Origin: Heliocybe sulcata
Taxonomy: Eukaryota; Basidiomycota; Agaricomycetes; Gloeophyllales; Gloeophyllaceae
Length of the DNA: 64,000 bases
Direction of reading: 5' to 3'
NCBI GenBank assembly: GCA_004369045.1
Contig: ML213545.1
Coordinates: 21,775 to 85,774 of the forward strand
Within the stretch, counting starts at the first letter, position 1. The number at the start of each line of letters is the position of its first letter. Below the pieces are notes generated by a model. The model saw nothing but the letters and a program-made list of their open reading frames with translations, did no database searches and was not told where the DNA came from. This document shows, piece by piece, positions 6,826 to 63,957 of the stretch. Position numbers and translations under genes: made by a program.

Positions 6826-7777
6826 TTAAGATACAAGCTTTAAGAGTGTGACAATCGAGTTCCGCTGCGAGATGAAGTGGCGGTACGCGAAGGCGACACG
6901 ATTGACGTGACTTGTAGGTGTCGGTGGGTGCGAAAAGTCAATCTTGAGCTCGGGATCTTCTGCTGGCAGTTTAAGCTTCGGGACTACCTCTGATCGCCGA
7001 CCGGGCTTGCTGCGACGGTATGCATCCATACCTTCAAGTATCTTCGCCTCTCGTTGCAAAAGAAGTGTCGATGGGCCTGTGAGGAGTCTTAATGATCAGA
7101 TGTTCGGCCATAACAAAACCTACGGTCCTGGACACGGAACAGAAACGAGATCTGCGCAAACGTAAGGGCGATACACGCCACTTGTGGGTGCGTATGGGTC
7201 CATAAATTTAGACCGACGCCTAATTATAGCAAAGTCCGCTCCGGATTCGAGTGAAATAACCGTGCTGAAAACCATCGAGCATATGAACCACGTACAACAG
7301 AGGTTATCTTTCTGACGCACCTCACATTCAACCATCCCAGTGCCCTTTGCTTGTACTCGGATGGCTGCCACGAAGCCCTGCCCTAACGCCGGCCCGCGCA
7401 CCCCGACCCGATCTCCCGGTCCACGCCGTTGGTCCCAGTTTATCCACAAAATAGCGCCCACTTTGCCATTGTCCCGCCCAACCCAGCAACGCCACAGGGT
7501 CGCCATTTCCAATCCCACCTCGTGTCCGCAGCGTGGTCGTGGCGAAGAAGGCCTGGGCAGCTTCGCGTGGGAGCGATCGCACCAGCACGCCCGGATGTCG
7601 ATCTCTGCCCAAACTGAGCGTCCCCGCTAATTATAGCGCTGTGGCGAGCACTCTCGAGCATGTTATACGACTTGTTCATCGTCTATGCTCATCATTTATC
7701 GCAATGGCCAAAAAAACCGGCTCATCGACGGACTGGAGGGAGAATACCTCGCAGGACGCAAGGCTGCAGTGATCGAC

Positions 7778-7888
7778 CGGCACAGCGGTGCCGTGGCCAA
7801 AGGTCAAAGTGCAGGACCGCCTTCCTAGCACTTTGACATCAAGACGGGACCCACAAACCGTTCTTTGTGACGCCCACAAGGCTTAAAA
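7778..7888 (+). promoter_or_regulatory. Promoter of zinc-finger gene A: two palindromes plus TATA-like box
   Basis: Palindrome 1 (7778-7793) is CGGCACAGCGGTGCCG, a CGG-N10-CCG arrangement. Palindrome 2 has arms GTCAAAGTGC (7803-7812) and GCACTTTGAC (7828-7837). A TATA-like CTTAAAAG follows at about 7882. The same three elements in the same order and spacing precede copies B and C, although the surrounding sequence has diverged. That conservation is the evidence for function; no binding protein is known. Confidence 0.65.
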
Positions 7889-8085
7889 GTCGCCTGCAAT
7901 TTCCCCTTGCCCATATCCCCCCACTTCCGAGCACCTATCGCCTCCGCGTCCGATACCTCCCTTTACGCGTTAGCCCTCTGCTGAATACGCGATCAACATC
8001 ACTTCGACGCCACTCGCCACACTCGCGCTCGACGCCACTCCGCCCAACGCACACCCTCGCATCCAACACAAGTCCACGACTCACC

Positions 8086-9782
8086 ATGCCCGACTCACCT
8101 CCGCCCACCACCCCCAAACCAGGCGCCGCCTCGCCGCCCCAAGACCCCGACACATTCGACATCTGGTCCTGGCTCAAATTCACCGACGACAAGGTACGCC
8201 TCCCCCTCTCCTCCAACCAAACCCACACTAACTCGCCACACAGACCCCAGAGCCAGTCGAAACCCCCGCAGACACACCCGACCCCTGGCTCGCCATCGCC
8301 GACTTCTGCACCGCCGTCCTCCCCCCTCCCTCCGCCACCGCCCAACCCGCCCTCCGCCGGCGCACCCTCGACGACGCCCGCGTCCTCGGCAACCCCGCCG
8401 AGATCATGGGCCCCCCCGTCCAGTCCACCCACTCCACCGCATCCGCACCGCCACCCATCTCGCCTCCCCTGCCCTTGCCCGTCCCCGAAACCACATCCTT
8501 CTCACCGGCGCCCCAGCCCAGCCATCTAACCTGGTCCGCAGACCTGACCATGGCAGACTTTGAGTTCAACATGGTCAGCCGCGCGGACCTCTTCCTCACC
8601 GCGCCAGCACTCACTCACCGCTCGCGCGAGCCCACGCCTTTCACCTTCCGCGAGCCCACGCCCTTCACCTTCCGCACGCCCATCCCCACCTCCCGCCGCT
8701 CCGTCACCCCACCCCGCGCCTCTCTCTTCTCAGACAACTCCGACGCGCGCTCCGCACAGGGCGGCAGAAAAGTCATCGAGATCTCAGACGACTCAGACGA
8801 CGAGCAACGCACCCGCACCCGCACCCCTCCCCCTCCCTCCCTTCCTTACCCGTCCTCTTCCAGACGCGCCAGGACTCCTCCGTTCACGCCGACTAGGAAC
8901 GCCACCCCAGGCCCAGGCCCTTCGACAGTCGCTCGCCGCCAACACCCCCCCGCACCCGCCTCTCCTCCCCCCACTCCACGGCCCTACACAGGCGGCAAGG
9001 CTCCCCGCAACCTCGAGCTCCACCGCCAAACGCCCTACCCACCCTCAAAGCCCCATCCCCAGCCCAAGAACAAGGGCAAGCAGCGTGCCCCCGCCGACGA
9101 CGACGACGAGCCCACGCAGACAAAGCGAAAAGGCAAGCAGAAGGAAACGCCACTCGAGGCGGACGTACCGCGCCCGGTCCTCGCGCTCAACTTCGACCCC
9201 GCAGACTACGACTTGTCCTTGTCCGCTCAAGACGAGGGAGAGGAGGAGGAGGAAGAGGAGGAGGAGGAGCGGCGCGCCTCCTCGTCGGCGGTACAGCTCG
9301 AGGACACCGAGGAGGACGAGTACGAGCCGAGCGACGACAGCGACGACGAGCGCGACGGCAGCTGGTCTCCGAGCGGCAGTGGCAGCGGCAGCGGCACCCA
9401 AAAACGCAAGGCGTCCAAACCCAAGCCCTCCACCTCTCCCGCCCGTCCCTCCAAAAAGCAACGCACCCTCCCCTCTCCCGCCCAGCTGCGCAAAACCACG
9501 CGGCACGGCGCCTCCGAGTGGCTCTGCCCGCACGCGGGCTGCGGGCACCGCACCAAGGCCAAGGGCGACATGGACCGGCACCTGCAGAGCGCGGCGCACA
9601 TGGCGCCCGCGTGGGCGTGCAAGCGGTGCGGGCACCCGTTCCAGAGGCATGATTCGATGAAGAGGCATTGTGAGGGGCGGGCGTGTCCCGGGGGGAGGCA
9701 TGCGGTGGGGGAGTGTGATGGGGCGCATGAGCATGGGTGTGAGGACGAGGAGGAGGAGGAGGAGGAGGGGGGGAGGCGGTGA
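8086..9782 (+). CDS. Two-finger C2H2/C2HC zinc-finger protein, copy A
   Basis: About 548 residues from two exons, 8086-8193 and 8244-9782, with intron 8194-8243 (GTACGC...CACAG) in phase 0. ATG 8086 is chosen because the spliced first exon aligns with those of copies B and C. Most of the protein is disordered: Pro/Ser-rich, with a repeated EPTPFTF unit, a basic KGKQR segment and Asp/Glu runs. The conserved YTGGKAPRNLELHRQ motif sits in the middle. The C-terminus carries two fingers: CPHAGC-x12-H-x5-H, and CKRC-x12-H-x5-C, each preceded by Trp. An acidic tail follows. A nuclear DNA-binding role is inferred from the fingers and composition; no named family was recognised. Codon use is much GC-richer than in copies B and C. 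No disruption. Confidence 0.8.
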
Positions 9783-11135
9783 TGGAGGGTGCCACCAAGA
9801 GGGGGGCGGTCGAGTCCTATGGGTTTGGGTACGGCTTTTGTTCGCGCAAGTGGCATTCTTCGGTTTCGATGGATGATTTCGCTTACCTTTTGTATTGTTC
9901 GTCGCGGCTATCATTCACGTTTTTCTCTCTTCGCTATTGTTCATTGTCCACATCGTGTAGTTTAGTTTCCTGCTTCGGTCGTATTATCTTGGTGTAGTTT
10001 ATTGACGTCCTGTTGTATTTCTTTCTTATTCATTCTCTTGGATTCAAATTCGGGCTTCAACTCAGTGAACGCACACCAGCTGGGACGAACGCAGACCGTG
10101 GGTCCAAACACAACATAGGGACTGTCGTGTCCATGAGCAGCGCCGCCATCTCGCACTAAAACGATGATGATCCCGAGCGACTAGATCGCGAAAAGAACAG
10201 CAGATTAGGAACGAACGTCGGTAGACAAGATTACTCGAGGTCCGTCCGTATTGGCAGCGACTGCTCCTCCTTCGCCAGCGCATCCCAGTCTGCCGATCAA
10301 GTTATAGCATGCTGAACAGACCACTACGCGGAGAGCCGAGTGAAGGATAAATGGAGTACCGCACCGTAAACGTGACTGGAAAGCACCAGAAGAAGTCCAG
10401 AAGGGTCACTGGGTCTTCACGAAGAGGGAATGACGTGAAGCTGCTTGAACACCGCTGCGTAAAGGAGGAAGAGCTTGTGAATCCACGGGCGCCAACCAAA
10501 TAGACCCGCGAGCAACGGGAACGCAGACGATCTTCGCCGTACGGAGGAGGGTGCCGTGGAGTCTCGGTTTTCCAGTCAGGATAACGATCTTCTTGGGAGG
10601 CCTCTGAGTAGATCGAGAAGAGGAGAGTCATACAAGATGAGCAGCGATACCGACATCGACCTCGCTGTTCTCTCTAATCCGAGAGACAGTGCATCAGATG
10701 CACAGCACCGACGGGACCAAAGAGACCGATGCCTACCTGTCGCGGTATAGATGCGTCTCCACGACGCCCGTCGGTCATCTACTGTAATCGCACCTCCTCT
10801 ACCGCTTCGGCAGCATCTCCACCGCCATTTATACGTCTACCAGGAGCAGGGGCCTGTGCTTGTAGCATAACAGAAGTAGCCCGTTTCCATAGTTTGTGGG
10901 TCCCCTCTTGACGGGCGCCTAATCGACGACGGGCGAAGAAACCTCAGGTGCGGAGCGTAACGCGATTCTCTCATGCATACGCTGGCTCAGAGACGGCAGG
11001 AGCTTCAGCAAAGAGCTAGAAGATGTTGCAGGCTCAGCGGGGGACGGCGAGAAGGCAGGTAAGAGTGGAATAAGAACACGTCAATATTCAATATTCAATA
11101 CCAGCGACTGCCGGCATTGGCCGATGGCCCTTGCC

Positions 11136-12489
11136 CCTCCCCGCCACCTTGTTCGATCCGGGCTCTAGTGAAAGCCGTCACGCACGCGTGCAAACAACGA
11201 AACTTTCCGCTCGGGGCGAAAGGTCGTCTGTCATCACATTTACATGCAAGCCTAGGTTGCGCTCGTTTATGCCGATTGCCTTCACAGGTATGGTTTGAGC
11301 GACTACTATCCCAAATATTAAGAGCAAGCGCGAGCGACGAAATGGATCGAGCGGAACGTCCACTGGCTTAATGTTTCTACTTGCTCACTGCACATGAATA
11401 TTAATAGCCGGAACAGATCGATTCCATGGCAGACGTAGAATGAACGTGAGCCCAACGACCCTACTCACGCTGAACCCGAGTCTACGAGGGTAGTACCCTC
11501 ATCCTCGTCAGTCCTGACCTGAATTCCGCTTGTCATGCTTTCAGAATGCCCACCTTGATCTACGCTTACATTTGTGCAGTACGTCTCCCCCTCCTCCCGC
11601 CTCACACTCATTCTTCTCCCTTTCCCTCAGAGGTGCCGAATCCCAGCCACTCGCATCGCAATTGCACCTCTATATCCATGCCTCTTGTGCCATCCCGGAT
11701 TATAGTCTCTACTCCATCCGCTATCCCAGCTAGACAAATGTGTGCTTCTTCTATCCCTACAAAGCATCTCTCTACAGAAGACAAGCGCCAGCGCCCACAC
11801 AACTTCTCACAAGCTCTACGATTCAGAATGGACTAGCCATACTGCCTTCAAAATCAAAAGCACGACTCAAAATGCGAGCTTATCTCTCCTCGCACATCTG
11901 TACGCAACGCTCCTCTGCCAGGCACAGACTGTTTCCTAACGGCTCATTATCCTCTACTCCAAATTCATCGCGACAAACGCCCTTGCTCCCCAACACCCTC
12001 ACCCCTTTCTTATTCCCAACCCGCTCACTGTCTTTTCACCACCACCATTACCTCCCTCGCGTGAAGCACGTCTATCAAGCGCCTCACCTCCACGCCCACT
12101 CATTGCTACTACGCTTCCGCCGCCTGCGAATACACACATTTGTGCGTACGAACATATTTAAGCTCACCCGACACCGCGTGTCCTTATGTGCCACTCTACT
12201 TACAGAGCCCCGAGCGATCTTCAGGCACACGTCGGATCAGTGTTTACTCAGCTTCTACTCTGCTGACACCGAACCTCCCCGGTCATCACGGCGATGCTGA
12301 GGCAGGTTTGTACCAGCGGGGATAGCAGCCGTTCTCGGTCCTCAATACTTGTGGGGAAGATCTCTCCCATGGTGCACGTTCATCTTTCCTAGGTCTCTGC
12401 CTTTAAAAGAGGAGCACAAGCGTCTCTATCATTCGCCATCCCCACGACAGCGGAGCACCAGAACCCCTCCTACCCGCTCTCACTCCCAG
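11136..12489. other. intergenic, weak coding-like traces only
   Basis: Open frames exist at 11546-11836 and 11740-12300 on +, but they lack a signal peptide, known motif or convincing splicing. They are His/Pro/Ser-rich, as expected for C-rich noncoding DNA. Pyrimidine-rich stretches near 12400-12480 are consistent with the promoter of the next gene. Confidence 0.4.
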
Positions 12490-13089
12490 ATGCGTCTCGC
12501 CTTCGTTGCATCCGCTCTCTCTGCGCTCGCAGCGCCCGTCCTGGGCGTTGTCATCAGTACGCCCACTAACAACTCCCCATCTCACTTTCTTCAACTAACG
12601 TCACACATCCAACAGCCACAACAGAAACAGTATCTTACATCCAGACCTGCCCCTACTTCGTCTACACGCCCTACTGGACAGTCACCGACGCAAGCGTCAC
12701 GAAAACCCTATCTCTCCCATCCACGTACGTACCTACTCTCTCATCAACGAACACATCTGATCAGCCTGCGACGGTAGGACCACCTCAACCTTTTACGTCA
12801 CCGAGTTCAGCCTGAGCGGCATCCCCATCTTCACCTTACCGACCCCGCCCGCTTCCCTCGATCCCAGCGCAACATATACAACCACCGTCGTAGACTACGT
12901 GCGTGTCGAATTGCGCCACCAATTGCTCTTGCGTTGACTTGTTATTGTCTGTAGCCGTGCACCACGACAGAGGGCGTCGCGACGATTCCCACCACGAAGA
13001 CCGTCTATAGCGGTACGACCACCACCACGGCGTGGGCCGCGACTGAGACTGTCACGAGCGTTGTGGCGACGTTGACGTATTTTGGTTAG
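12490..13089 (+). CDS. Small Thr-rich secreted protein
   Basis: Spliced from four exons. Exon 1 encodes a textbook signal peptide (MRLAFVASALSALAAPVLG). Introns start GTACGC (12555), GTACGTAC (about 12724) and GTGCGTG (about 12900), and end CAACAG, GGTAG and CTGTAG. The mature protein is about 135 residues, rich in Thr/Ser/Tyr, with few cysteines (QTCPYF and YPCTT) and a Thr run before the end (TAWAATETVTSVVATLTYFG). Such composition suggests O-glycosylation and a cell-wall or extracellular location. No family was recognised. A decayed relative lies just downstream at 13709-14045. The model is supported by frame continuity over all three introns. Confidence 0.7.
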
Positions 13090-13708
13090 GATGGGAAGGG
13101 AATGGGTATTGTTTGTCGTCTTTAGTTAGTATTGTCGAGCAATGTGCCACATTCGTGAACGTGCAATGAAGAATGGCTAAGCCGACGGCATCTCGTTTGG
13201 GCCGAGTAAAAGCGCCCGAGGGTTAACGCCCTCTCTACCTTCATCTGGCCCACACTCCTTGCTCCAGGTACCTCCGGGACCGAGCTCAGCGACAGGCCTC
13301 AGGAAGAAACATCCCCATCCGGGTTCGGCATCTATGCATGGTGTCAACAGACTGCCCCATGGCCCATGGGTGTCCTCTCGGTTGTATCAACACGAGAAAG
13401 GGGATCCTCTGTCTCACAAGACAGCCTAAGTGTTATCCGTACCTGGTCGATGATCGACTGTCGACTCGTCTAGCACCCGAGTTCAATCGGCGATGGCGAC
13501 CGCACTATGGTCATATCGAGTGCAGTTTCCGAAGACCGCTGACCACTTAAGGGGACGAGATTCATCGGACTTGTTGGCTCGCATGCTAAGCATCAACCTG
13601 AAAACCAACGATCAAAAGAGGCACATAAGAGACGCGGCCCACTGCCATTGCTTGGCCTCAGTATGTGGTGTATCTCCTCTCATAGTCCGAGGGTCTCATT
13701 CGCAGCAG
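13090..13708. other. spacer between the secreted-protein gene and its pseudogene
   Basis: No open frame with motifs. It presumably holds the 3' UTR and terminator of the upstream gene, plus the decayed promoter of the tandem copy. Confidence 0.4.
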
Positions 13709-14045
13709 ATCCGTCTTTTCGCTCTCGCACCCGCACTGCGCGTGCAAGTCAGTGAGTCCTTCCACGTACTGCTCTTGCTCTCAGCGCATATCGCCCCACT
13801 ATACAGCCTCCACATGGACGACACCTACATCCAGACTTGCCCCCACACAATCTTCTACCCGCCCCGACGATAAAAGCAGCTTCTACCACAGAGACCATCT
13901 CTCTACCGTACACCATCCTCCTGACAGCCCATGACAAAACAAACTGAGCGTCTCTCCGTTCTAACACGACGAACACATTCTCAGTGGCATAATTCTCCCT
14001 GTCTTCTACGAGCCCACGCCGACTGTCGTCTACTATGCCAGTGCC
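13709..14045 (+). pseudogene. Decayed tandem copy of the Thr-rich secreted protein gene
   Basis: At 13709 the sequence CAGATCCGTCTTTTCGC matches the start of the upstream gene (CAGATGCGTCTCGCC), but the ATG has become ATC. The donor context CAAGTCA/GTGAGT and acceptor CTCTCAG follow at the expected places. The next piece encodes TYIQTCPHTIFY, matching SYIQTCPYFVYT of the intact copy. After that the frame stops. A further piece near 13995-14040 encodes LPVFYEPTPTVVYYA, resembling exon 3. This is a tandem duplicate that has lost its start and its frame. Confidence 0.6.
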
Positions 14046-14505
14046 CGCGCCGCCTCTTTAATCTTTCTGCCGCTGATGTAGATGGCTGCCAAGGCTTGCA
14101 CGACGTTTGAAAAGACTGTGATCTTGTCGATCTCCTTGGTAGCACCTCGCCCCTGGATCTCTTGGATGCTCGGAGGTCGATTGTCCCGAGTCTGGCCTCC
14201 AGTTCGAAGGTGGGATAACCTCTTCGCTCCTTTTCTCGAGGAGAGTGCGAGCGTCCACCCCGGCTAATAATCCTGCGTCAATACAACCTCGCGGGTCTGT
14301 TGAACGGTCCACGCCCCGCACTGGAACGGGACTCCCAAGCCATCGGTCAACGGATACCCCCATTCGCTCCGGATCCATCGATAGTAGGGATATCGGACAG
14401 CCCACTAGCATTCCGCTGGCCAGGCTGCCGCAGACAGACACCATCAAGCCAGGCATACTCTACGCCTAGACGGTGCAGTCCATCGCACACTGCTTCACTG
14501 GCGAC
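14046..14505. other. no gene seen
   Basis: Frames overlap on both strands without motifs. Nothing supportable. Confidence 0.4.
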
Positions 14506-15230
14506 TCATGACGCATGACCATTTACAGGGGCGTCAAGGCCAGTGGGACACGACGACATATCCCTCAGTCCCCGTAGACCAGACGGGTGGCATCGATACC
14601 CGCAGTACGCATATGGGACCACTGTAAATCCCGCAACCCCCGGGAATCTCAACTCCCATCGGAGGAAGTCGTCGCTGGTTACGGAGTTCTGGAGGCGTGC
14701 CAGCTTGTCCTCATCCCCAAGTGTGATCTGTAGCGTGTCCAGGTTTCGTGAGGACTCTGGGGAATGCCCAGCTCCCAAAGCCGTAGCGGTGTGTGCTGTA
14801 TAAGAGAGATCCTCAGCAGCGCCTTCACACCGCACTCTGCTTTCCAGTCGATGTGCCAGGGGTCCAAGGTACCTCTGAGATTGAGACCTGGCTCTCTGCA
14901 ATCGAGAAAAGCGTCCTCGGGGGATAAGATGTCCGCCTCCCACCCACCCGGCGGTATATGTCGGAGCTGGACGTCTTCGTTCCGCCGGAGAAGGCTCCAT
15001 GGAAAACACGTCTTCACCGACTCGAGGTAAATACTTACTGACTCGACCAATCCACCAGCCCGGTCCATTAGCTGAAAAGGCCCACCAGGCTATCTCTTGG
15101 GAAGGAATAATGCGAGGTCGTATGCTTCGACTAGCTCGAGTAGATGTGTCGACGAGGGTGATTCACCAAGAACGCCAACCCATGGTAGACTCAGCCGGCA
15201 GAGAACACGGGATAAGCGCCAGTACATGAT
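14506..15230 (-). pseudogene. Possible decayed gene of unknown family
   Basis: On the minus strand, protein-like stretches follow each other in different frames. First THLLELVEAYDLALFLP, then AWWAFSANGPGWWIGRVSKY, then GGWEADILSPEDAFLDC with LDPWHIDWKAECGVKALL, then DEDKLARLQNSVTSDDFLRW. Each looks like real coding sequence (hydrophobic pattern, Trp-rich), but no intron set that I can see joins them all in frame. The first piece vaguely recalls the end of a BTB domain, which is too weak to name it. This is either a degenerate gene or one with introns I have not resolved. Confidence 0.3.
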
Positions 15231-15526
15231 GCAGAGGTGCCTTTTCTCGCGTACGGTCTTCCAGCGTCGAAACAGAAATAATAGTCATTTCCCTGATGCG
15301 CTGGGTCGACTAGTCGGTATCTATACGTAGTGGGCGAGACAAAAGCAAGCGTCAACTGTCCCGGCTGCAACAAACGTGCGCAAGCGGTGCTCCTCCGAGT
15401 CGTAGTCGTGTTCGGAATATATAGTCTAATGTACAATCGATAATCCACTTCTTCGTAATCTCCATCAATCCTATCCATCGTCCTCCGCAACGTGCATCAA
15501 ACAACCACGCACCTCCTCACGCCTCC
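15231..15526. other. intergenic
   Basis: 3' flank of PPE1. No gene or repeat seen. Confidence 0.4.
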
Positions 15527-23030: not shown

Positions 23031-23426
23031 GTGTGGGAGGTGGTGTGCGAGGGTTTGTTGTATTGTATGTACGGTGTAGAGTTTAATGCGTGTGGTTTGG
23101 TTTGACGCATAGGACTTTGTAGGTTCTTGTGTTAGGGAAAGCAGTGCTGCTGCAGGAGCCTCGGACTGCGCTGGTTATCAGATGTTGAAGCGTGCAAGTA
23201 GTTTTGCCCGTGAAGGTTTAAGTCTATCGATCCGTGCTACAATTTTAGATGCTTCCCTACACCGGATGCAGAAATACGGATGGAGCTGTATGAATAGCAG
23301 AGACTATCTAAGACGTCGACGAGCTGTTGAAGCCATAGTGTCTAGATCTACTCTCTATCGCGACAGAGGTCTGGTCACTCAGCTGTTGAAGCGAAGCGCA
23401 AAGTCGCGGCTACGGTCGACATAGCA
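23031..23426. other. convergent 3' spacer
   Basis: Lies between two converging genes. No gene or repeat seen. Confidence 0.45.
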
Positions 23427-25267: not shown

Positions 25268-27274
25268 ACTGGAATCGGTGTGGAGGCGATGATTGTCTGA
25301 CTGTACTTACAGAGACTTATATGTAGTTGGAACTGTTGACTCGTCAAGTAAGTCCGCGGAGAAGAGAAAGAATAAGAAGGATGATAGGGAGAGTACGGCA
25401 TCGCAATTCTCCATGCGAAGCTTGCTTCTGGATTCTGAGTTATTTAGCTAACCCTCTTCACCAGAGACCCATTAAAGTTGGAACTTTTCTCCGCAGATTT
25501 CAACTCTGCAGACTCTCATCATCCCAATGCGGACGAGTATGAAAACATCGAACCGTTGGCACTCTAAAGGCGCACTCGTGAACTCACCAAATACGATACG
25601 AGGTGGGATAGGTTACATACCTTTCTCGCCGGAACGCCGGAGTTTTGATTATGGATTCCCAGTTCTTCAACTGGCCTCTTCACCAGGAGCCGTCAAATCT
25701 GGAACTTTTCTCCGCAGATTTGAACTCTGCAGACTCTTATCATCCCAATGCGGCGAGCTTGAATATATCGAACCGCCGGCACTCCAAAGGCGCATACGTG
25801 AACTCACCAAATACGATATGAGGTAGGACAGGGTCCCTACTTTTTTTGCCGATACGCCGGTCGTCCTCCTGCCTTGTTGAAGACTTTAGGTGGGATCATT
25901 AGTTAGGCTTCGGTGCAGCTATTCTTCCTAGATAGCCATTCCATTTGGGTAATGCGAGACGCCGAGCTCTGTTTCGGTTCTTTGGTTTTGCGAGAATTCT
26001 AGATCTGTCTTTAATGGTCCCACATCTATGAATATGGCATCAGTGACCATAACGGGTGTACAGAGAATCAAGCACCTTGATCATCTTCGAACCTCTGTGG
26101 TAGAATAGGTGCTGAGACGTTGGACGGTAAGACGGATCCGGGGAACAGACGGCCTGCATCCTCTGCCGTACAGGACTCAAAGACGGACGCTCCGTTGATT
26201 CGGTGTCATTGTTGCTATATCTTCCTGCAACGCCGCTATCTTCCTGTAAAGCCGCTTCACTGAGTTATGATAATGACGGAGAGATACAGGGCTGAGACGG
26301 CGTGGAAGGGAAGATCTGGCAACTAAGGAACCTATATAGCATACCTTTCCGCGTAGCAAGATACTTGGAAATGTAATTGAGCACAGATGTTGGATGCGAC
26401 GACTGCAGGTTGCTTCCTATGCGGAAATCCCCGGGCTGGGTTTAGGAAATACCCGAGTACCATTCACATCAGTGTTCGCTTCATCACGCTGTATTCCCGC
26501 TCAAGCGGCGCAGCCCAACATTTCGTTTCTGTTGGGCTTATGGTAGGTTATTCTAGGGATAAGCAAATGTACGGTGGATACTCGGCTCCAGTTCATACAT
26601 TTACAGGAGATATTCCACCGCCGGGCTAGGCGCCAGCTTGTCTATTCCGACCAAGGCAGGTACCAGGTAACACAGCCATGGCCCTCTCTTTAGTGAGCAA
26701 ACTGATAGCAACTCTCTCACCAGAGCAGCCTCTAAGGATTGCGCAATTGAATCCATTTATCACTGACTTCCATTCTCTTCCAGTGTATCTAACACCCTGA
26801 GTTCGTATCCGCTCCAGATGGGGTTCTCCACACGAGTTTTCGTGCTTGACTGCGATCACTTCGATTCTCTGACGCATGCTGCCCCCCTCGAAGGCGTTAG
26901 GGTGCGTCTCTTTGAAATAGAGACGGCCACCGACTCGTTATCTACCATAGTTATCCAGCACCGTCCAGGATCTACTTCTCATGTGCGTCAACGTAGGTAC
27001 GGGGGTTCCGATCCTTACTGGGGCTAGAGTCACATCAATGATGTTACAGAACAATTGTCTGTTAATTTATAATTGCCGCAGACTCAGTGTGTAAAAAACG
27101 TATATCGCAAGGGGGTCCAACATATGAAGCCTACAGCTGAAGACAATAAAGAGAGTATCTACGGTACGGATGTCTAAGCGAGCAAAATTCTAAGCCATAA
27201 CATGCCTCTTCTAACTTTCTAATCTCACGACCAGCCGAACAATACAAGTAAGGAGCCGATGACCGAGTGAAGCA
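25268..27274. other. 2 kb gene-free stretch with a tandem repeat
   Basis: Contains the 221-bp-period duplication annotated separately. Otherwise it has only short frames without motifs. Possibly old gene debris around 26820-27030 (a hydrophobic-charged alternating frame), but nothing nameable. Confidence 0.4.
25454..25835. repeat. Tandem duplication, two copies at 221-bp period
   Basis: Copy 1 starts at 25454 and copy 2 at 25675, both with CCTCTTCACCA. They share GGAACTTTTCTCCGCAGATT, TCATCCCAATGCGG and GTGAACTCACCAAATACGAT, and are about 85-90% alike by eye over roughly 160 bases. The spacer between them is unlike. Each copy also encodes a possible peptide (LQRRIRELTKYDMR in copy 2), but the frames differ, so coding capacity is doubtful. 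Confidence 0.75.
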
Positions 27275-37464: not shown

Positions 37465-38333
37465 TAGGATACAGGCTTCTCGATGTCCGCTGACAGATTG
37501 CGTGGCAGTACGCGAAGACGATACAATTGACGTGAATTGTGAGAGTCAGTGTCAGCGAAAATCCAATCTCCAGCTTGGGGATCTTCTACTCGCAGTTTGA
37601 GCTTCGGAGCAATGTCTGATCGCCGACTGGGATAGAAACCAAAGCTCGCAGGATTGTTGCGACAACTTCGAGGACTTGCGTCTCTCGGTCGGAATGGAGT
37701 GTTGATTGGATTCAAATGAGTCGTCGTGGGTCAACCTGACTGTGAGAAGGGTCTTGAGCACGAGATGGAAGTGAGATCTGGGCAAACGTAAGGGCCATAC
37801 GCGCAGCGTGTGGGTGCCTATGGGGCCATAGACTTATACGAATACCTAACACCGAGCTCTAGCTAGATGACTGTGGTGGGAATCATTGAGCATGTTAGTC
37901 GCGTACAAGCACTGTTATTTTAATTGTGCACCTCACGTTCAGACACATTGTTGGACCTTTTCTTGGTAGGATTGTGGTCTGCAAACGACCACGAAGGGCG
38001 AACAATGGACGCCAGCTCTAATACTGGCCCGTGCATCTAGCAAACCCTTGCTCGCCATTGTGTGGTCAAACGCAGTGCAGCGTCAGGCGTCGACATTTGC
38101 AATGCGCCTCGTTTCTGCGGCGTGCTGCAGCGTGCTGATGGCAAAGCCTCCGTGGGACCGCTTGCACTGCATTTTGTAATGACGATCGGTGTCCTAAATA
38201 GGTTTCAACGCTAATTATAGAGATGTGGCGAGCTCCGTTAGACTCGTCTATGGTTAGGATTATCACAAGCAATAGGCAACTGGATGGACTGGAGGAAGGA
38301 TATCTTGCAGGATGGAATAGCGAGGCGATCGAC

Positions 38334-38446
38334 CGGCACAGCTGTGCCGTTGCGAAAGGTCAAAGTGCAGGGGCACCTTCCTAGCACTTTGACATCAGGA
38401 CCAAACCCACAAACCATCCTTTGTGCCACCCCACCGGGTATATAAG
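38334..38446 (+). promoter_or_regulatory. Promoter of zinc-finger gene B: two palindromes plus TATA box
   Basis: Perfect 16-bp palindrome CGGCACAGCTGTGCCG (38334-38349; CGG-N10-CCG with a central CAGCTG). Then GTCAAAGTGC (38359-38368) paired with GCACTTTGAC (38384-38393). Then TATATAAG at 38439-38446. The order and spacing match copies A and C. Confidence 0.7.
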
Positions 38447-38680
38447 CCGTCCAAATTTCCCCTCGGTCCTACCACCCCCCACATCCGAAACTGTCAACTG
38501 CGTGTCTCTCCCAGCCCAACACCTTTACGCATCAGACCTCAGACCTTTGCTCTATACTCGAGATCAATCTCATCTTGACGCCACACCGCCGAACACGCTC
38601 GCCACAGTCGCGCTCGAAACGATCCTGCACAACTCGTACTCACACTACTCTCCAACATAAGACCACCACTTCGATAAGCC

Positions 38681-40619
38681 ATGTCCGAGTCCACCTCGCA
38701 GAACAATACACCGGCATCCCAAGGCGTCGACAACGGGCGAATGCCACCGGGCAATCAACCTGCCACGGGCGACATCGGGTCATTGGACAAATGGGTGCAG
38801 GACGAGGTACGCATTGTCTTATATATGATGAATGAATATAGCCTTACGTGACGCGCACACATCCGAGCCACTCGAAACCTTTATGCCAACATCCACACCT
38901 ACTACAAGCGAATTACCCAGCGATACGACCACACCAGACTCTTGGGAGGCCTTGCATGAGTTCTACACTGCTCTCTTTGGCCCTTCAGCAGACACCGCGC
39001 CAGATGTATCACAGGAAGGGGCTATGAACGACACCACGCCGTTGGGCGGCCCCGCGGATACCATCGGCCCTCCCATCCAGTCATCACAGTATAACTCCAC
39101 TACCATACCGCCGCACCAGCCTGAACACGTCGCCGAGACGGCACCTGTAACATTCACACCTGCACCACAGGGCCCGTTGCCCACCTGGCCAACGGCTTTC
39201 ACGCTGCCCTCCTGGCCAACGGATTTCATGCTGGCCAACTTTGAGCTCAGTACGGTCAGCCCCGCCGATGTCTTCCTATACAGTCTCACCAGCGAAGCAG
39301 CGGAACCTACTCACCACTCACCCGAGCCAACACTGTTCCCATTCCGGGCACCCATCCCTACATCCCGTCGCTCGGTAACACCACCCCATGTCTCTCCGCC
39401 TGCCGACGACGGAGATGACAATAACTATGCATCCTCTGCACGAGAAAGCTTAGATACTGTGATATCCGACAACAAGGACGGAGCTTCTGCAAGGCTGTAC
39501 GCGGGCGGGAAGAGCCAGCGTACCCCAGTTTCGCGCTCGCATCTATGCAGCGCAGCTCGCAGGAGCGACACTCATGTCTTTTCTTCGGCTCCTCACCCGA
39601 CCTCTGGTCACCCTAGACGTGTTGGGTCTCCTCCTCCCATGTTCGTGTCGAGTGAGAGAAGCACCACACTAGGAGCTAGTCCTTCGACTTCCGATCGCCG
39701 CGAACCTTCCTCAGTCGCGCAATGGACCGGGATGCCGGGCCCTGGTCCCTCTACGCTGGCAACTGCCTCTCACCCATCTATGTTGTTAGATAAGTCCCGG
39801 GCCTACACCGGCGGCAAGGTCCCGCGCAACCCCGAGCTCCATCGCCAGACGGTGTACCCCAAGTCCAAGCCCTCGAAGGCCACGAAGGGCAAGACCGGTA
39901 AGGGCAAGCGGCGCGCACAAGACGATGGGGATGAGGACTACGTACCTGAGAGGACGACGAGGAACAGAAAGCACAAGCAGAAGGGGACCGAGGTTCCCCA
40001 GCCCGGCCTCGCGTTGAGCTTCGACATAGCGGACTACGACTTGTCCGAAAGCGAGCCGCTCCTGGCCAGGGTGACACGTTCGAGCGGCAACCCCATCGCT
40101 TCTTCGTCCGGTGTGCAGCTCGAGGACCTACAGCCAGAGGCCATCCACGCCGAGCTTGACGAGGACCAGGACGGTACCGATGAATACAAGCCGAGCGACG
40201 GAAGCGAGAGTGCCAGCACTAGCCCCGAGCCCAACCCGCCGAAACACAGGACCACCGTCGCAGTTGAGAAGTCGAAGAAAAAGCCTCCTCCCGAGAGCTC
40301 CAAGCCCGCCTGTCCCGAGTCCCGCCTCGAGCCGCTCCAGGTGACGCACGACGGCATCACCAAGTGGATTTGCCCGCACGATGGCTGTGATCACCGCACC
40401 ACGTCCAAGGGCGACATGGGCCGCCACATGCAAAGCAGACGCCATGTGGGCCCGCAATTCTTCTGAAAGCGGTGCAACAGGTTGTTCCAGCGCGCCGATC
40501 CGCTGAAGCGACATTGCAAAGGAGGGAAGTGCCCCGGAGGCACGCATAGTCCTGAGGAGTGTGCACCACCACCACGACGAGGGCCTCGAGGAAGAGTGGA
40601 GAGGCAGAAGACTCAATAG
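38681..40619 (+). pseudogene. Zinc-finger protein copy B, truncated by a stop and with a lost splice acceptor
   Basis: Exon 1 (38681-38806) encodes [15 protein letters not shown]... and ends at donor GTACGC. The acceptor used by copies A and C (CAG before Thr) is CAC here (38851-38856 region). The next AG, GAG/CCA at 38867, would rescue the frame with loss of three residues; reading through the intron hits TGA. The body is otherwise collinear with copy C, including [15 protein letters not shown] and finger 1 (CPHDGC...H...H). At 40464-40466 the codon for the first cysteine of finger 2 is TGA. The frame stays open after it to TAG 40617-40619, with the rest of finger 2 ([17 protein letters not shown]) preserved. 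So it is a recent loss: at best a protein with one finger. Confidence 0.8.
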
Positions 40620-41471
40620 ACGAACGCCAGGAAGAGAGGAGCGGACGAAGGTGTCTGCATATAGATTTGGTTACGGGCTTCTGTTTGCGCAAGTAGTATT
40701 GTTCGAGTTCGATTTTCTGGTGATTTCGCTTACATTCGGTCTTGTTCGTCACGGCTATTACCTTTCACTCTCCCCCTATTGTTCATGCTCCATACCGTGT
40801 AGTTTAGCTTCCTGCTTCGTTCTCCTTGTCCGGCCGTATACCCTGTAGTTTATGGGGTTCCTATAGTTTCTTACTTCATCAATTAGATTCTATTTTGAAC
40901 CTGAGCTCACTCACCAATGTCAATTACTACCATAAAGACAGACTGCGGAGTCTGCCAGTCAGATAGATGGTGTGGAGGATACATACGCAAGACGTGCCGA
41001 GCCGTACGAGAGCGCCATACGATCAAGATGGGCAGCGATAGGGACATCGCGCTCATTCCTGTGTCCAACTTGGAACAAGATGACATTAAACGTTCATTAC
41101 CGACTGTTAGAGAAGGCCGATGCTTACCTCTCATAGTATAGACGCGTCCTGAAGATGTCCCTGTCGATGCGGTCGGACTTCCACTGCTACAGTGATCCAC
41201 CGGCACAAAAGCGTAGAGAGAAATACAGTACTGTCATAAACATACCGTTTAGAGGCTTCCAGAGCCTGAGCAAAGAGAAAATCCTGCAACGTCCTAACAA
41301 TGAGCGGGAGACATAAGTAGTATGACGAGACGGTAAAAACAACTTCCGGCATTGGCCGATGCCATCTCTACGCCATCGCTCTACGCCTTGTCGCTCTCGC
41401 TAAGCATCCCAGTATACATTCAGGATCGTTCGAATTGTTTTCGATCCTGCGACATACAACGGCTCACAACT

Positions 41472-42525: not shown

Positions 42526-42655
42526 AGCAGTTGGTACGTTCATATTGATGATTGCTTTGCGTGGAAGTATTCCTTTCAACTCACAATCAGAGGATACTTC
42601 TAGGTTACATCGCGTCGGCTAGACTGTCGGTACATCTGTTATCTTACAAGGTAAT

Positions 42656-45970: not shown

Positions 45971-46187
45971 ATGCATATCATCAGGCCATGTACAGTACTA
46001 CGCATTCCGTTTGCTGCGGAAGAAGTAACGAATAGCATACCCGGTTAATCTCAAGCACGACGTGTATGCCTGAGAGCACGCGCGGCGAACGAATGGCAAG
46101 GTCAAGGACGCATCGCGTTGGTAAGAATACAGGGTACAAGATCGCTTGACGATACAAAGGATGTACATAATCGACGGAAGGCGCGCT

Positions 46188-48763
<2,576 letters not shown>

Positions 48764-50354
48764 TTTGACGATTTCACTACCTCGCATGTAAAGCAGCGTC
48801 TTTCCTCAAGGTAGCTTCGTAGGGTCTGTCACGACTAACCTTCTAGTATGTAGTACCAAGTGTTGCTTGCTCGTCGTGTGTCGTCTGTAGGTTGAAGAAG
48901 GCGTACTCGAGCGGTCTTAACTTACACAGCTCAGAGTTCGCTCCATGATAGCGTCATGTGCATCGTCGCATCGAGTGAACCATTTCCCACTGTAACAGGA
49001 CCTAGCGTGGTATCGTAGAGAGTTCATGTCGAATCTCAACATTGTGCAATTGCCACAGAATCAGCAGGAGGACACAGTTGCATTGCAGTCGAAGTTAGCA
49101 ATCGTAGTGGACTCGGTAGGACGCATCAGTTGCGCCCAGCGCTTAGGGCCTCCCGGAGATAGCCGCGTAAGCGCCCGTACGCACGAACATAAAAATACTC
49201 AGAAAGTACTCTGCAGCGGACCGAAAAACAATTCGAGGGATGAAGCTGAAGATGCAATGTATACTGGGATACTTAAGTTTCAGGCCTCAGACCCGAGGGG
49301 CACGCGCGGAGATTTCCGGCGACGTCAACTACATGGTGGTGCCCCCCAAGCGACTTTACGGGGTCCTGATTTGCGCTTTCCTGCACGATTTGCCCGCGTT
49401 TTGCTGCTGTGGCTTGCACACGCCATGGATAGTCCCATCAAATTTTCATAAGTCTTATATGATCAATAGAATATATGTGGTCCATTTTTTACGGCTGTAG
49501 AATGACCATGTTAAAGGTAATAAATCAGATATCCGTCAAGGACAGGTGCACCACCTGTCCCGATTTGGATGGAGGCCGCGGGTGGCGCGCGTATACGCAA
49601 GGTGTCAAACTTCGGTGGGTGCAGCTTGCCCTTCCAATTCTTCACACTTTGAACCAAGTATACAAAAGTAAATTCCAAACATATATACATATATTCACTC
49701 CTTTTTCTGTAGTCTGCTCTCCCGGGTAAATAAACAGAGTCCCTTTAAACCGAGCTCTTGAAGTTCTGCATGCTGAAGATAAAGCCTAAGGGGCACTACA
49801 GAATGGACACAAGTAAATATACTATTTGTATATGCTTTATTGGCTTCATAATTCCATTGTGATAATGTGGAATGACCTGCGGTCTTCTGGGCACCATGTA
49901 GGAGGTATGTCTTGACTACCCTGAGCAGCCGGTATCGAGCCCAAGTACTAGGGCCCTGTTGCGGCGCGTCATCTGAGCAATGTAAGAATTAAGTATTTAC
50001 TGATGAAGATTAATCCAGTGGCACTGAATTACGGTCAATTCTCGTCAGTTGTCCCATTGTGAGCAATATCCTGGCTGTGGAACATAGGATAATGGGTACC
50101 TCGTCATAATGTATGCTACTGAGTACTGTATTTACCACATAAATCATCTTCCACTACAGCAATATACATTTGCAGGTACATCACGTACAGCAGGACTGCG
50201 TTGTAGAGCGTTACAGGCTGTGGTCAACCCGGAGGCTAACTAGGTAACGCCACAAGTTTCCCTTTTCGGGGTGGTGGTACATGCTTCCGGGGTCCAGATG
50301 CGCTTTCCAGAGTTGATATCGTGCATTTTCTGGCCGCCGGCCCCCTGGTTCTGG
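48764..50354. other. AT-rich stretch between SelO and module C
   Basis: From about 49000 to 50230 the sequence is markedly richer in A+T than the surrounding gene DNA. It has runs such as TATACATATATTC and no credible gene. A 141-codon frame at 49026-49451 lacks motifs. Such a block may be an inserted element or decayed transposon, but I found no convincing terminal repeats. Confidence 0.4.
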
Positions 50355-50768
50355 ATGGCGAGAGCGAGGCGTAGAGATGGCATCGGCCAATGCTGAAAGT
50401 CGCTCGTATTGAGTTTTTCTTACTTCTGTTCATATTTACTCTCTCGCCATATGTCTCCCGCTAGCGCTCATCGTTAGGAGTTTGCAGGGTTTTCTGGCTC
50501 TTTGCTCAAGCTCTAGAAGCCTCTATGTAGCATGCTCGAGAGTACCGTGTCTCTCTCTACGCTTTGTGCCGGTGGATCACTGTAGCAGTGGAAGTCCGAC
50601 CGCATCGACAGGGACATCTTCAGGACGCGTCTATACTATGAGAGGGAAGCATCGGCCTTCTCTAACAGTCTGTAATGCACATTCAATGTAACCTTGTTCC
50701 AGGTTGGACACAAGAATGAGCGCGATGTCCCTATCGCTGCCCATCTTGATTGTATGGCACTCTCGTAC

Positions 50769-51543
50769 GGCTCGGCAATCTTGGGCAATACGACCCCCAG
50801 AAAAAACAGTCCCACGCCACCCTGACTGCGCTTTTAGTGGGAGGATATTGATCAGTGACTGTGGGCAACCTGGCAGAGAGGCAATGAAGCCATAGCTCAA
50901 TTACACTAGTCTAATGTGCTTGAGTAACTGGAAGCAGATAAAGGTGCAATATTGAGGGGTTTGAGGGGTATAAAGTGTATTTGAGTCGGAAAATGGAGGT
51001 AATATATACATTATAGCTCTCAAGACCTGTAAGCAGACATGGTGTAGTGGATAATGTGTACAATTTCGGCTTACGCGGCATGCTGAAGGTTGTTCGTTCG
51101 AGTCTCCTTGTTTGTATGATTTTTATGGTCAGCGCACATGGCGATTCGTCTACACCATAAGATTTTTGACAATTACTGGCACAGTACTATCTTGTGTTCT
51201 ATCTTATATTCTATTCTTGCTTACAGAAAACTTCACAATTCCAGCACACCCCTCGAAGTTAGCGCACGGTCGCATTTGTGGCGCTATGGGCGTTATCTTC
51301 CATTTCGGTAGTTGCGACCTCAGTCCGTGTTGGGAGGATTGCATTTCCTCTTGGAGTGACACTGCCAGTACGACCATGTATCTACCCTGATAAATAATGG
51401 ACTTAGACGATCGACAATCTGCTTCCGCGTCCACGACCACACTTCGCATTTCGCGAACGCGAGCAAACCACGTGCGGCTTGATTAGTCAGCGAGGCGTGG
51501 GACTGTTTTTTCTGGGGGTCATATTGTACAAGTTGGCTCGGCA
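50769..51543. mobile_element. Non-autonomous DNA transposon (MULE-like MITE), with target duplication
   Basis: The element is 50778-51534 (757 bp). Its ends are ~41-bp imperfect inverted repeats: 50778-50818 and 51494-51534, both containing GACCCCCAGAAAAAACAG and TCCCACGCC. It is flanked by the 9-bp direct repeat GGCTCGGCA at 50769-50777 and 51535-51543. Module B carries that sequence once (40993-41001, opposite strand) with flanks matching both sides, so it is the empty site. It has no transposase frame, so it must have moved in trans. A 9-bp duplication with long inverted repeats fits Mutator-like elements best. The class call is inference; the insertion itself is directly visible. Confidence 0.85.
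51033..51124 (+). other. tRNA-like sequence with polymerase III A and B boxes
   Basis: Box A TGGTGTAGTGG (51040-51050) fits TRGYNNARNNG, and box B GTTCGAGTC (51096-51104) fits GWTCRANNC. The flanks GCAGACA (51033-51039) and TGTTTGT (51109-51115) pair over all seven positions as an acceptor stem, including two G-U. TTTTT follows at 51120-51124 as a terminator. The T-stem pairs poorly, and the anticodon arm would have an 11-base loop, so it is not a functional tRNA as drawn. It is a decayed tRNA or the head of a tRNA-derived SINE, lying inside the transposon. Confidence 0.5.
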
Positions 51544-51922
51544 CGTCTTGCGTATGTATCCTCCACACCATCTATCTGACTGGCAGACTCCGCAGTCTGT
51601 CTTTATGGGAGGAATTGACATTGGTGAGTGAGCTCGGGTTCGAACTCAATAGAATCTAATTGACGAAGTAAGAAACTATAGGAACCCCATAAACTACACG
51701 GTATACGGCCGGACAAGGAGAACGAAGCAGGAAGCTAAACTACACGGTATGGAGCATGAACAATAGGGGGAGAGTGAAAGGTAATAGCCGTGACGAACAA
51801 GACCGAATGTAAGTGAAATCACCAGAAAATCAGACCCGAAGAATACTACTTGCGCAAACAGAAGCCCGTAACCAAATCTATATGCAGACACCTTCGTCCG
51901 CTCCTCTCTTCCTGGCGGTCGT

Positions 51923-53833
51923 CTATTGCGTCTTCTGCCTCTCCAACTTTCCTCGAGGCCCTCGTCGTCGTGGTGGTGCGCACTCCTCAGGACTATGCCT
52001 GCCTCCGGGGCACTTCCCTCCTTTGCAATGTCGCTTCAGCGGATCGGCGCGCTGGAACAACCTGTTGCACCTCTTGCACAACCATTGCGGGCCCACATGA
52101 CATCTGCTTTGCATGTGGCGGCCCATGTCGCCCTTGGACGTGGTGCGGTGATCACAGCCATCGTGAGGGCAGATCCACGCGGTGATACCGTCGTGCGTGA
52201 CCTGGAGCGGCTCGAGGCTGGACTCGGAACCGGCGAGCTTGGAGCTCTCGGGAGGAGGGTTCTTGTTCGACTTCTCAACTGCGACGGCGGTCTTGCGTTT
52301 CGGCGCGTTGCGCTTGCGGCCACCGCTGGCGCTGTCGCTTCCGTCGCTCGGCATGTATTCATCGGTACCGTCCTCGTCCTCGTCAAACTCGGCGTGGACG
52401 GCCTGCGGCTCTAGGTCCTCGAGCTGCACACCGGACGAAGAAGCGACGGGGTTGCCGCTCGAACGTGTCACCCTGGCCAGGAGCGGCTCGTTTTCGGACA
52501 AGTCGTAGTCCGCTATGTTGAAGCTCAACGCGGGGACGGGCTTGGGAAACTCGGTCCCCTTCTGCTTTTGCTTCCTGCTCCTCGTCGTCCTCTCAGGTAC
52601 GTAGTCTTCATCCCCGTCGTCGTGTATGCGCCGCTTGCCCTTACCGGTCTTGCCTTGCGTGGCCTTCGACGGCTTGGACTTAGGGTACACCATCTGGCGA
52701 TGGAGCTCGGGGTTGTGCGGGACCTTGCCGCCAGTGTAGGCCCGCGGCATATCGAACGAAGCAGATGGGTCAGAGGCAGTCGCCAGCGCGGGGAGACCAG
52801 GACCCGGCATCGCAGCCCGCTGCGCGACTGAGGATGTTTGTTGGCGGCGATTGACAGTCGAAGAGCCAGGTCCTAGTGTGGTGCTCCTCTGACTAGGTAG
52901 GAACATGGGAGGAGGAGGAGACCTCACTCGTCTAAGGGGGCGAGAGCTCGGGTAAGGGATGGAAGACAAGACAGGAGTGTCGCTCCTGCGACCTGCGCTG
53001 CGAAGGTGCGAGTGCGCGGCTGGGGTACGCTGACTCTTCCCGCCCGCGTACGGCCTTGCAGAAGCTCCGTCCTCGTTGTCGGATATCACAGTGATTTGGT
53101 TTCCTCGTGCAGAGGATGCATAGTTACTGTCATCTCCGTCCTCGGCAGGCGGAGAGCCATGGGGCGGTGTTACCGAGCGACGGGATGTAGGGATGGGCGC
53201 GCGGAATGGGAACAGTGTTGGCTCGGGTGAGCGGTGAGTAGGTTCCGCTGCTTCGCTGGTGAGACTGTATAGGAAGACATCGGCGGGGCTGACCGTACTG
53301 AGCTCAAAGTCGGCCAGCGTGAAATCCGTTGGCCAGGAGGGCAGCGTGAAAGCCGAGGGCAACGGGCCCTGTGGCGCAGGTGTGAATGTTACAGGTGCCG
53401 TCTCGTCGACGTGTTCAGGCTGGTGCGGCGGTATGGTAGTGGAGTTATACTGTGATGACTGGATGGGAGGGCCGATGGTATCCGCGGGGCCGCCCAACGG
53501 CGTGGTGTCGTTCATAGCCCCTTCCTGTGATACATCTGGCGCGGTGTCTGCTGAAGGGCCAAAGAGAGCACTGTAGAACTCATGCAAGGCCTCCCAAGAG
53601 TCTGGTGTGGTCGTATCGCTGGGGTATGCACTTGTGGTAGGTGCCGCAAAGGTTTCGACTGGCTCGGACGTCTGCGCGTCCATAAGGCTATAGTCATTCA
53701 TCATATATAAGACAATGCGTACCTCGTCCAATGACCCGATGTCGCGCGTGGCAGGTTGATTGCCCGGTGGCATTCGCCCATCGTCAGCGCCTTGCGATGC
53801 CGGCGTATTGTTCTGCGAATTGGACTCGGACAT
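51923..53833 (-). CDS. Two-finger C2H2/C2HC zinc-finger protein, copy C (intact)
   Basis: Exon 1 is 53723-53833 ([19 protein letters not shown]...), the intron is 53672-53722 (GTACGC...GCGCAG), and exon 2 runs to 51923; about 619 residues spliced. The 51-base intron has no stop and keeps frame, so retention would add 17 residues. The protein is disordered, with Pro/Ser/Thr-rich N-terminal half, [34 protein letters not shown], a basic [13 protein letters not shown] segment and an acidic region. The fingers are CPHDGC-x12-H-x5-H and CKRC-x12-H-x5-C ([10 protein letters not shown]), then a basic tail. Compared with copy B it keeps the splice acceptor and the finger-2 cysteine, and lacks five residues (KWVQD) at the end of exon 1. 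A DNA-binding role is inferred; no named family. Confidence 0.82.
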
Positions 53834-54055
53834 GGCTATCGAAGTGGTTGTGTTATGTTCGAGAGTAGTGTGAGTACGGGTTGTGCGGGGTGATTTCGAG
53901 CGCGACTGTGGCGAGCGTGTTCGGCGGTGTGGCGTCCAGATGAGATTGATCTCGAGTATGATAGAGCAAAGGTCTTATGCGTATCGGGCTGAGAGAGACA
54001 CGCAGTTGACAGGTTCGGATTCGGGGGGTGGTCGGACCGAGGGGAAATTCAGATG

Positions 54056-54169
54056 GCTTTTATACCTGGTGGGGTGGCACAAAGGATGGTTTGTGGGTTC
54101 GGTCCTGATGTCAAAGTGCTAGGAAGGTGTTCCTGCACTTTGACCTTTCGCGACGGCACAGCTGTGCCG
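54056..54169 (-). promoter_or_regulatory. Promoter of zinc-finger gene C: two palindromes plus TATA-like box
   Basis: On the minus strand: CGGCACAGCTGTGCCG (54154-54169), then GTCAAAGTGC / GCACTTTGAC arms (54135-54144 and 54110-54119), then a TATAAAAG-like word at 54057-54064. Identical order to copies A and B. Confidence 0.7.
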
Positions 54170-55085
54170 GTCGATCGCCTCGCTATGCCATCCTGCAGGA
54201 TATCCTTCCTCTAGTCCATCTATTTTCCTACTGCTTTTGATAATCCTAACCATAGACGATGGCCCGCTCGTGTCTAACGAAGCTCGCCACATCGCTACGC
54301 CACATCTCTATAATTAGCGTTGAAACCCATTTAGGACACCGATCGTCATTACAAAATGCAGTGCAAGCAGTCCCACGGAGGCAGTCCACGAGGCTGCGAA
54401 GGCCTTCTTTCCCATCAGCACGCTGCAGCACGCCGCAGAAACGAGGCGCATTGCAAATGTCGACGCCTGACGCTGCACTGCGTTTGACAGCGCAATGGCG
54501 AGCAAGGGTCTACTAGATGCACGGGCCAGCATTAGAGCCGGCGTCCATTGTTCGCCCTTCGTGGTTGTTTGCAGACTCTGACAATGTGTCTGAACGTGAG
54601 GTGCACAATTAAAGGAACAGCTTTTGTACGCGACTAACATGCTCAATGATTCCCACCATGGTGATCTAACTAGAGCTCTGTGCTAGGTATTCGTCTAAAT
54701 CTATGGACCCATAGGCACCCACAAGCCGCACGTATCGCCCTTACGTTTGCCCAGATCTTACTTTCATCTCGTGGTCAAGACCCTTTCATAGTTAGGTCGG
54801 CCCGCGACGACTTATTACAATCCAATAGACACTCCCATCCCGACCGAGAGATGCAAGTCCTCGAAGGTCGCAGCAAGCAGCCTGCGAGCTCTGGTCCCCA
54901 TCCCAGTCGGCGACCAGACATGGTTCCGAAGCTTAAACTGCGAGCAGAAGATTCTCGAGCTGGAGATTTGATTTCCGCAACCACTGGCAGTCACAACTCA
55001 TGTCAATCGGGTGGTCTTCGCATACCGCCATGCAATCTGGCACCGGACATCGATTTTCGATCTCGTGAAGCTTATATCTTATGAA

Positions 55086-63956: not shown

Positions 63957-63957
63957 G

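Follow-up and report, generated by a model that had tools for sequence, protein, structure and literature searches.

The window analyzed here comprises the last 64 kb of an 85,774-bp contig (C43) of the basidiomycete Heliocybe sulcata, and carries three copies (A, B, and C) of a module containing a gene for a two-finger protein. The contig ends in a TTAGG/TTAGGG array, which agrees with the subtelomeric location proposed in a first-pass annotation of this DNA, and, measured from the telomere to the closest edge of each module, A, B, and C are roughly 53, 23, and 9 kb away. Unless a contig is named, positions are those of the window.

6706-11135, plus strand: module A, with an open frame, the most diverged copy and GC-rich, delimited by self-BLAST blocks.
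37478-41387, plus strand: module B, a recently disrupted copy.
50357-55202, minus strand: module C, inverted, with an open frame.
63957-64000, plus strand: telomere repeat TTAGG/TTAGGG at the contig end.

Self-BLAST aligns B (37480-41003) with inverted C (55053-51535) at 87.9% identity over 3591 columns, and a further block (B 40995-41387, C 50777-50357) at 82.4%. Module A matches both B and C in blocks of 67-77% identity, which lie upstream (6706/6855-7213 and 7724-8048), over the fingers and the 3′ end of the gene (9505-9980), and in a short stretch at 8551-8658, and which include non-coding DNA on both sides. The GC fraction of A is 0.661 in the 8001-10000 bin. Homology thus extends beyond the coding sequence into both flanks, as the first-pass annotation had claimed, and its ordering of the copies, with B and C close (82-88%) and A diverged and GC-rich, is borne out.

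The genome searched is a single one, of 31.6 Mb in 51 contigs. Two queries, module A and the frame of C taken from stop to stop, together with pairwise comparison of loci, identify a family of 11 copies (8 long and 3 fragments) on 6 contigs, counts that are lower bounds. Mapping the module onto the whole genome, as had been proposed, therefore adds eight copies on five other contigs.

C43: modules A, B, and C.
C21: three copies in a row (a fragment, C21b, and C21c) at 541.3-549.2 kb of 551.7 kb.
C27: one copy at 350.1-354.5 kb of 373.7 kb, on a contig whose end likewise carries telomere repeats.
C45: one long copy and one fragment at 23.1-31.8 kb of 76.8 kb.
C18: one copy at 41.1-44.4 kb of 649 kb.
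C24: one fragment, ∼1.5 kb from the contig end.

The C24 fragment is a weak match (E 7.9e-5), supported by short DNA matches to at least four other copies. Beside it, C24:439014-439958 shows a diverged partial match to the window at 47.8-49.2 kb, where there is a SelO-like frame (46188-49178); this may reflect an exchange between those two chromosome ends.

The members are concentrated near telomeres. Both C43 and C27 have telomere repeats at their ends and family copies within ∼60 kb, the C27 copy lying 19-23 kb from the telomere at the second telomere-bearing end occupied by the family. The copies on C21, C24, C45, and C18 are ∼1.5-44 kb from contig ends, and at most ∼18% of the genome lies within 55 kb of such ends; telomere repeats are not seen at the C21 end or at either end of C45 or C18. 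Separately, C25 contains short telomere-like repeats (plus strand at 88503-88524, minus strand at 116626-116642) that are possibly interstitial.

The aligned copies have a common layout, in which an ATG and a short first exon precede an intron of 50-53 nt and a long second exon, and the family gene would accordingly read as a two-exon gene, with the following predicted structures and domains.

8086-9782, plus strand: gene A; exon 1 8086-8193, intron 8194-8243 (GT-AG in the alignment), exon 2 8244-9782; open frame, 548 residues predicted.
38681-40466, plus strand: gene B; exon 1 38681-38806; the open frame ends at a stop at 40464-40466.
51923-53833, minus strand: gene C; exon 1 53833-53723, intron 53722-53672, exon 2 53671-51923; 619 residues predicted.
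9504-9731, plus strand: two-finger C2H2-type domain of A, from the alignment and family search.
51980-52207, minus strand: two-finger C2H2-type domain of C, from the Zif268 match and AlphaFold model.

The reading frame is open over its full length in four long copies (A, C, C21c, and C27), and the other four (B, C21b, C45, and C18) are disrupted. In B, the acceptor CAG of the other copies reads CAC and a stop replaces the first Cys of finger 2, so B has probably ceased to function as a gene. C21b contains stops together with a change of frame. A frameshift is common to the C45 and C18 copies; an intron that would resolve it can be drawn in silico with several GT-AG pairs, none backed by data, and we call both copies disrupted with that caveat. 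The coding part is under constraint in the open copies: the ratio of nonsynonymous to synonymous substitution rates (dN/dS) is 0.36-0.51 in their six pairings, at dS of 0.58-1.13 (NG86 script, exon 2 only) and nucleotide identities of 60-74%. The corresponding ratio for B and C is 0.71.

The only recognizable domain of the protein is a C-terminal finger pair. The remainder is of low complexity: in the exon 2 products, P, S, T, D, E, K, Q, G, R, and N make up 67-71% and order-promoting residues 16-23%, values that describe composition only and do not come from a disorder predictor. The spacings C-x4-C and C-x2-C...H-x5-C are present in six long copies (A, C, C21c, C27, C45, and C18), such that the second finger ends in a Cys. 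Curated C2H2 profiles score the pair below their cut-offs, with 13.9 bits for zf-H2C2_5 (cut-off 27) and 11.5 for zf-C2H2_4 (cut-off 27) in C, and a sub-threshold 9.7 bits for zf-H2C2_5 in A. Among sequences of solved structures, the pair matches engineered and natural Zif268 fingers (best E 1.8e-8). AlphaFold modeling of 76 residues, with three sequences, gives two β-β-α units (mean predicted local distance difference test score 79.9 for the best model and 47-66 for the other four). Foldseek against the PDB returns 183 matches at E ≤ 10 and none at E ≤ 0.001; the best 50 of the 183, whose TM-scores do not exceed 0.40, are C2H2 finger proteins and almost without exception in complex with DNA. 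With the finger pair alone as query, the genome yields 13 matches at E ≤ 10, eight of them family copies and five others (best E 0.0036).

The first-pass annotation had described a protein of no named family. That holds for the Pfam profiles, where hits stay below threshold; the fingers themselves are, by sequence and predicted fold, ordinary C2H2-type. Zif268/EGR1, the best relatives among solved-structure sequences and weakly matched by Foldseek, resemble the pair in finger spacing and predicted fold. The family protein differs in having two fingers where Zif268/EGR1 has three, in carrying them at the end of a long low-complexity chain, and in the H-x5-C ending of the second. The C-terminal pair most likely binds DNA.

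Upstream of the gene is a 71-bp promoter core, at −343 to −273 from the start codon of C, comprising a 16-bp palindrome, CGGCACAGCTGTGCCG, that reads CGG-N10-CCG and a 10-bp inverted repeat with a 15-nt spacer, GTCAAAGTGC-N15-GCACTTTGAC.

7771-7841, plus strand: promoter core A; palindrome with one mismatch 7778-7793, inverted repeat 7803-7837.
38327-38397, plus strand: promoter core B; palindrome 38334-38349, inverted repeat 38359-38393.
54106-54176, minus strand: promoter core C; palindrome CGGCACAGCTGTGCCG 54154-54169, inverted repeat 54110-54144.
7882-7889, plus strand: TATA-like box of A, CTTAAAAG.
38439-38446, plus strand: TATA-like box of B, TATATAAG.
54057-54064, minus strand: TATA-like box of C, TATAAAAG.

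The four open copies are identical at 65/71 positions of the core, compared with 182/359 in nine flanking 50-bp bins (−550 to −351 and −250 to −1; Fisher p 1e-11). Two bins further out give 47/81, and the region beyond −650, where the alignment fails, was left out. Genome-wide, the inverted repeat occurs at nine places with up to three mismatches: seven family promoters and two unrelated sites with three mismatches each. Six of the seven are exact and the seventh, in the stop-bearing C21b, has two mismatches, so that up to two mismatches the repeat is found only at family members. The reversed control pattern has no match in the same search, and a second pattern (palindrome plus left arm, up to three mismatches) finds the same seven copies only. 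The two arm changes of C21b accompany a gene with stops, and the altered palindrome of the C45 copy a frameshifted gene.

Because it lies upstream of the TATA-like box, the core is probably not transcribed from a start at that box, and judged by its conservation it is kept by selection. We considered gene conversion across the whole promoter as a cause of this conservation and disfavor it, since the promoter as a whole diverges about as the gene does; the branch of A is 0.31 in the promoter tree and 0.37 in the gene tree, and three of the four inner branches of the promoter tree lack resolution. A near-frozen core that this genome has only in the family suggests common control over the family's genes, possibly exercised by the proteins they encode.

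At the other end of the module, a conserved block 3′ of gene A (10636-10930, plus strand) matches the C27 copy and has no frame common to all copies. A short ATG frame that is seemingly shared by A, B, and C was considered as a second gene; in the alignment, judged by eye, the frame meets an early stop in C27 and C21b, and we therefore treat the block as non-coding. A 20-nt inverted match (95%) links the promoter of module A (7839-7858) with its 3′ region (10892-10911), and is partly visible in other copies.

The gene tree pairs B with C, C45 with C18, and C21b with C21c. B and C represent an inverted duplication confined to the module, and C18 and C45 a larger one that continues 3.4 kb beyond it. 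Between the latter two, the finger region contains 4 substitutions in 433 bp, compared with 76 in 1060 bp just upstream (p 4.5e-8). Synonymous differences drop along with the others (dS 0.024 compared with 0.117, from the same script), so this region is likely a tract of ectopic conversion.

That a cassette of gene and both flanks is repeated on several contigs and in both orientations, with B and C of nearly the same extent, would also be expected if the whole module were a non-autonomous mobile element transposing between chromosome ends, one of two readings offered by the first-pass annotation. However, neither terminal repeats nor target-site duplications are seen at the ends of B and C, and inverted-repeat scans of A, B, and C reveal none. 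The 5′ end is not fixed, with homology running 149 bp further between A and C, and 108 bp further between C and C45, than between B and C. The homology of C18 and C45 runs well past the module, and the copies found lie near contig ends. Module C itself contains an insertion that displays what transposition looks like at this locus:

50778-51534, no strand assigned: 757-bp insertion in the 3′ part of module C, resembling a miniature inverted-repeat transposable element (MITE).

Its terminal inverted repeats are ∼48-50 bp long (48 bp at 89.6% by self-BLAST), it is flanked by a 9-bp target-site duplication, GGCTCGGCA, and a single copy of this 9-mer is present at the empty site in B (both by eye). 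Eight dispersed places in the genome, including that in C, carry the element, one other being 99% identical, and the length of its target-site duplication points to a Mutator-like element. With this MITE as a positive control, we consider transposition of the whole module improbable; ectopic duplication and conversion near chromosome ends explain the copies better. The other reading of the first-pass annotation, a fast-evolving regulator set with shared control regions, is supported by the Zif268-type fingers, the dN/dS of the open frames, and the family-only core, as far as sequence goes.

We propose that these modules constitute a birth-and-death family of two-finger C2H2 transcription-factor-like genes near chromosome ends. 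The unit would be a ∼4-5 kb cassette of ∼1.2 kb of upstream control DNA, the two-exon gene, and ∼1 kb of downstream DNA. In the encoded protein, DNA binding would fall to the finger pair and recruitment of other proteins to the long low-complexity part. The family-specific core, palindrome followed by inverted repeat, would keep working copies under one shared regulator. New copies would arise and pass from one chromosome end to another through ectopic duplication and gene conversion, and would decay quickly. Leaving aside whether family proteins bind the core, we regard this picture of a family with a shared promoter and spread by duplication as rather probable.

The identity of the shared regulator is a question on which a second upstream sequence bears.

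54282-54293, minus strand: contains TGTGGCGAGC, invariant across 7/7 aligned upstream regions, with the hexamer GTGGCG; the hexamer is also found in A (7539-7544) and B (38225-38230).

Under recognition rules that we assume for C2H2 fingers, the contact residues (finger 1 S/A, G, D, R; finger 2 R, D, small, R) suggest a GNGGCN site. GTGGCG occurs 29 times in six upstream regions, compared with 4.0 (standard deviation 2.0) in first-order simulations, of which 0/300 reach 29; as the six regions are homologous, these are not six independent counts. It ranks first among 6-mers upstream of A (8 observed, 1.28 expected, p 5.7e-5) and of the C45 copy (7 observed, 1.33 expected, p 4.5e-4), against the background of the fetched sequences. 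In a ranking that left out B and C21b, GTGGCG and the overlapping TCGCCA are the two 6-mers found at least three times in all five regions. Outside the modules, none of 674 overlapping 1231-bp segments of C43 reaches 7 (maximum 5). One GTGGCG site is invariant in 7/7 of the aligned copies, and others in 6/7, 5/7, and 4/7. Since the hexamer is over-represented upstream of some copies and fits the finger-code guess, auto- or cross-regulation of the family genes is plausible, and we tentatively name the family's own proteins as the leading single candidate for the regulator of the core.

The main alternative is that the modules are ordinary subtelomeric duplicates without self-regulation, and that an unrelated host factor, such as a Zn2Cys6 dimer on CGG-N10-CCG, occupies their core. 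The spacing of this palindrome is, we presume, that recognized by Zn2Cys6 dimers such as Put3; neither the palindrome nor the inverted repeat is itself a GNGGCN sequence, and enrichment of GTGGCG is strong only in A and the C45 copy. However, the restriction of the inverted repeat to family copies, at up to two mismatches, would be unusual for the site of a general factor, and a GTGGCG site is invariant in all seven aligned upstream regions. We see a host factor as a possible, although not the likelier, explanation.

Several observations weigh against the family picture or its extension to self-regulation. Only 2/10 contig ends with telomere repeats in their first or last ∼60 bases (C4, C5, C6, C11, C17, C30, C33, C36, C27, and C43) carry copies found here. 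The C18 promoter has been lost in a deletion of ∼1.1 kb. The disrupted B retains an exact core and the open A has a one-mismatch palindrome, so the link between the core and the state of the gene is not strict. Conservation of the core is that among paralogs of one genome, with a history that includes conversion. As for the fingers, the GNGGCN guess was derived after the promoter had been seen, and the GNGGC class is not enriched in the upstream regions (67 compared with 59; 54/300 simulations reach 67). Both single-region p values fail correction for ∼2080 hexamers. Upstream of C, C21c, and C27, GTGGCG is not among the eight most enriched 6-mers, and its counts for B (3), C (4), C21c (4), and C27 (3) do not exceed those seen in ordinary segments. 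Finally, the CGG-N10-CCG palindrome would, on our assumption about such factors, suit a Zn2Cys6 protein equally well. In light of these points, a full self-regulating circuit is a doubtful extension of the family picture.

A selfish meiotic driver or similar element, with a low-complexity, fast-evolving protein and a shared promoter, could likewise be subtelomeric, turn over quickly, share regulatory DNA, and leave half of the long copies broken. Against this, the family protein ends in a conserved finger pair of DNA-binding type, and we consider this explanation very improbable.

Other repeated DNA is present on the same contig. A tandem pair of ∼219-bp units with 82% identity is located at 25422-25860. 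From ∼17 kb to the left of the window up to window position 4500, C43 contains several kilobase-scale direct and inverted duplications (66-86% identity), which surround an AAA-ATPase frame (1407-2267; Pfam AAA).

The nearest known kinds of system are the TLO genes and the subtelomeric RecQ helicases. TLO (Med2) genes of Candida albicans are, in the available part of their description, subtelomeric transcription-regulator genes in 10-15 copies (PMC9713401), and thus resemble the present family as regulator or regulator-like genes at chromosome ends. They differ in encoding a Mediator subunit rather than a zinc-finger protein, and that same part of the description contains no family-specific promoter palindrome (PMC9713401). 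Pfam gives no Med2 hit for A or C at E ≤ 1, and the present genes do not belong with TLO. The RecQ helicase genes of Agaricus bisporus, as the accessible portion of the source has it, are multi-copy at chromosome ends with complete and truncated copies (PMC7473861). They are similar in this respect, yet their products are helicases and not a zinc-finger regulator that comes with a promoter module of its own. Lineage-specific expansions are described, in the portion available, by a survey covering the C2H2 genes of 30 basidiomycetes (PMC12295980). Its genes share C2H2 fingers and such expansions with the family; no shared promoter module is described in that portion, and the finger pair here falls below the Pfam cut-offs. 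The main text of the survey contains no word beginning "telomer" (PMC12295980). Among the matches listed in the open-licence literature, no title describes this family, which is known in kind and new in this combination.

Descriptions of subtelomeric gene families usually center on the proteins. In the present family, conservation is higher in the promoter core than in the coding part, and the pattern searches, as far as they go, place the core at no other genes of this genome. We offer, as a speculation more easily doubted than believed, a chromosome-end family that is self-wired: each cassette would pair a fast-evolving two-finger protein with a family-only promoter read by such proteins, so that duplicates would join a cross-regulated network with dosage sensed via the core. 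If the proteins do bind the core, the family would be a small closed circuit that spreads by duplication while staying co-regulated. The core is a ready sequence tag for such cassettes in other fungi, and the family lends itself to a clean test of whether selection maintains the promoters of gene families at chromosome ends even as the encoded proteins diverge.

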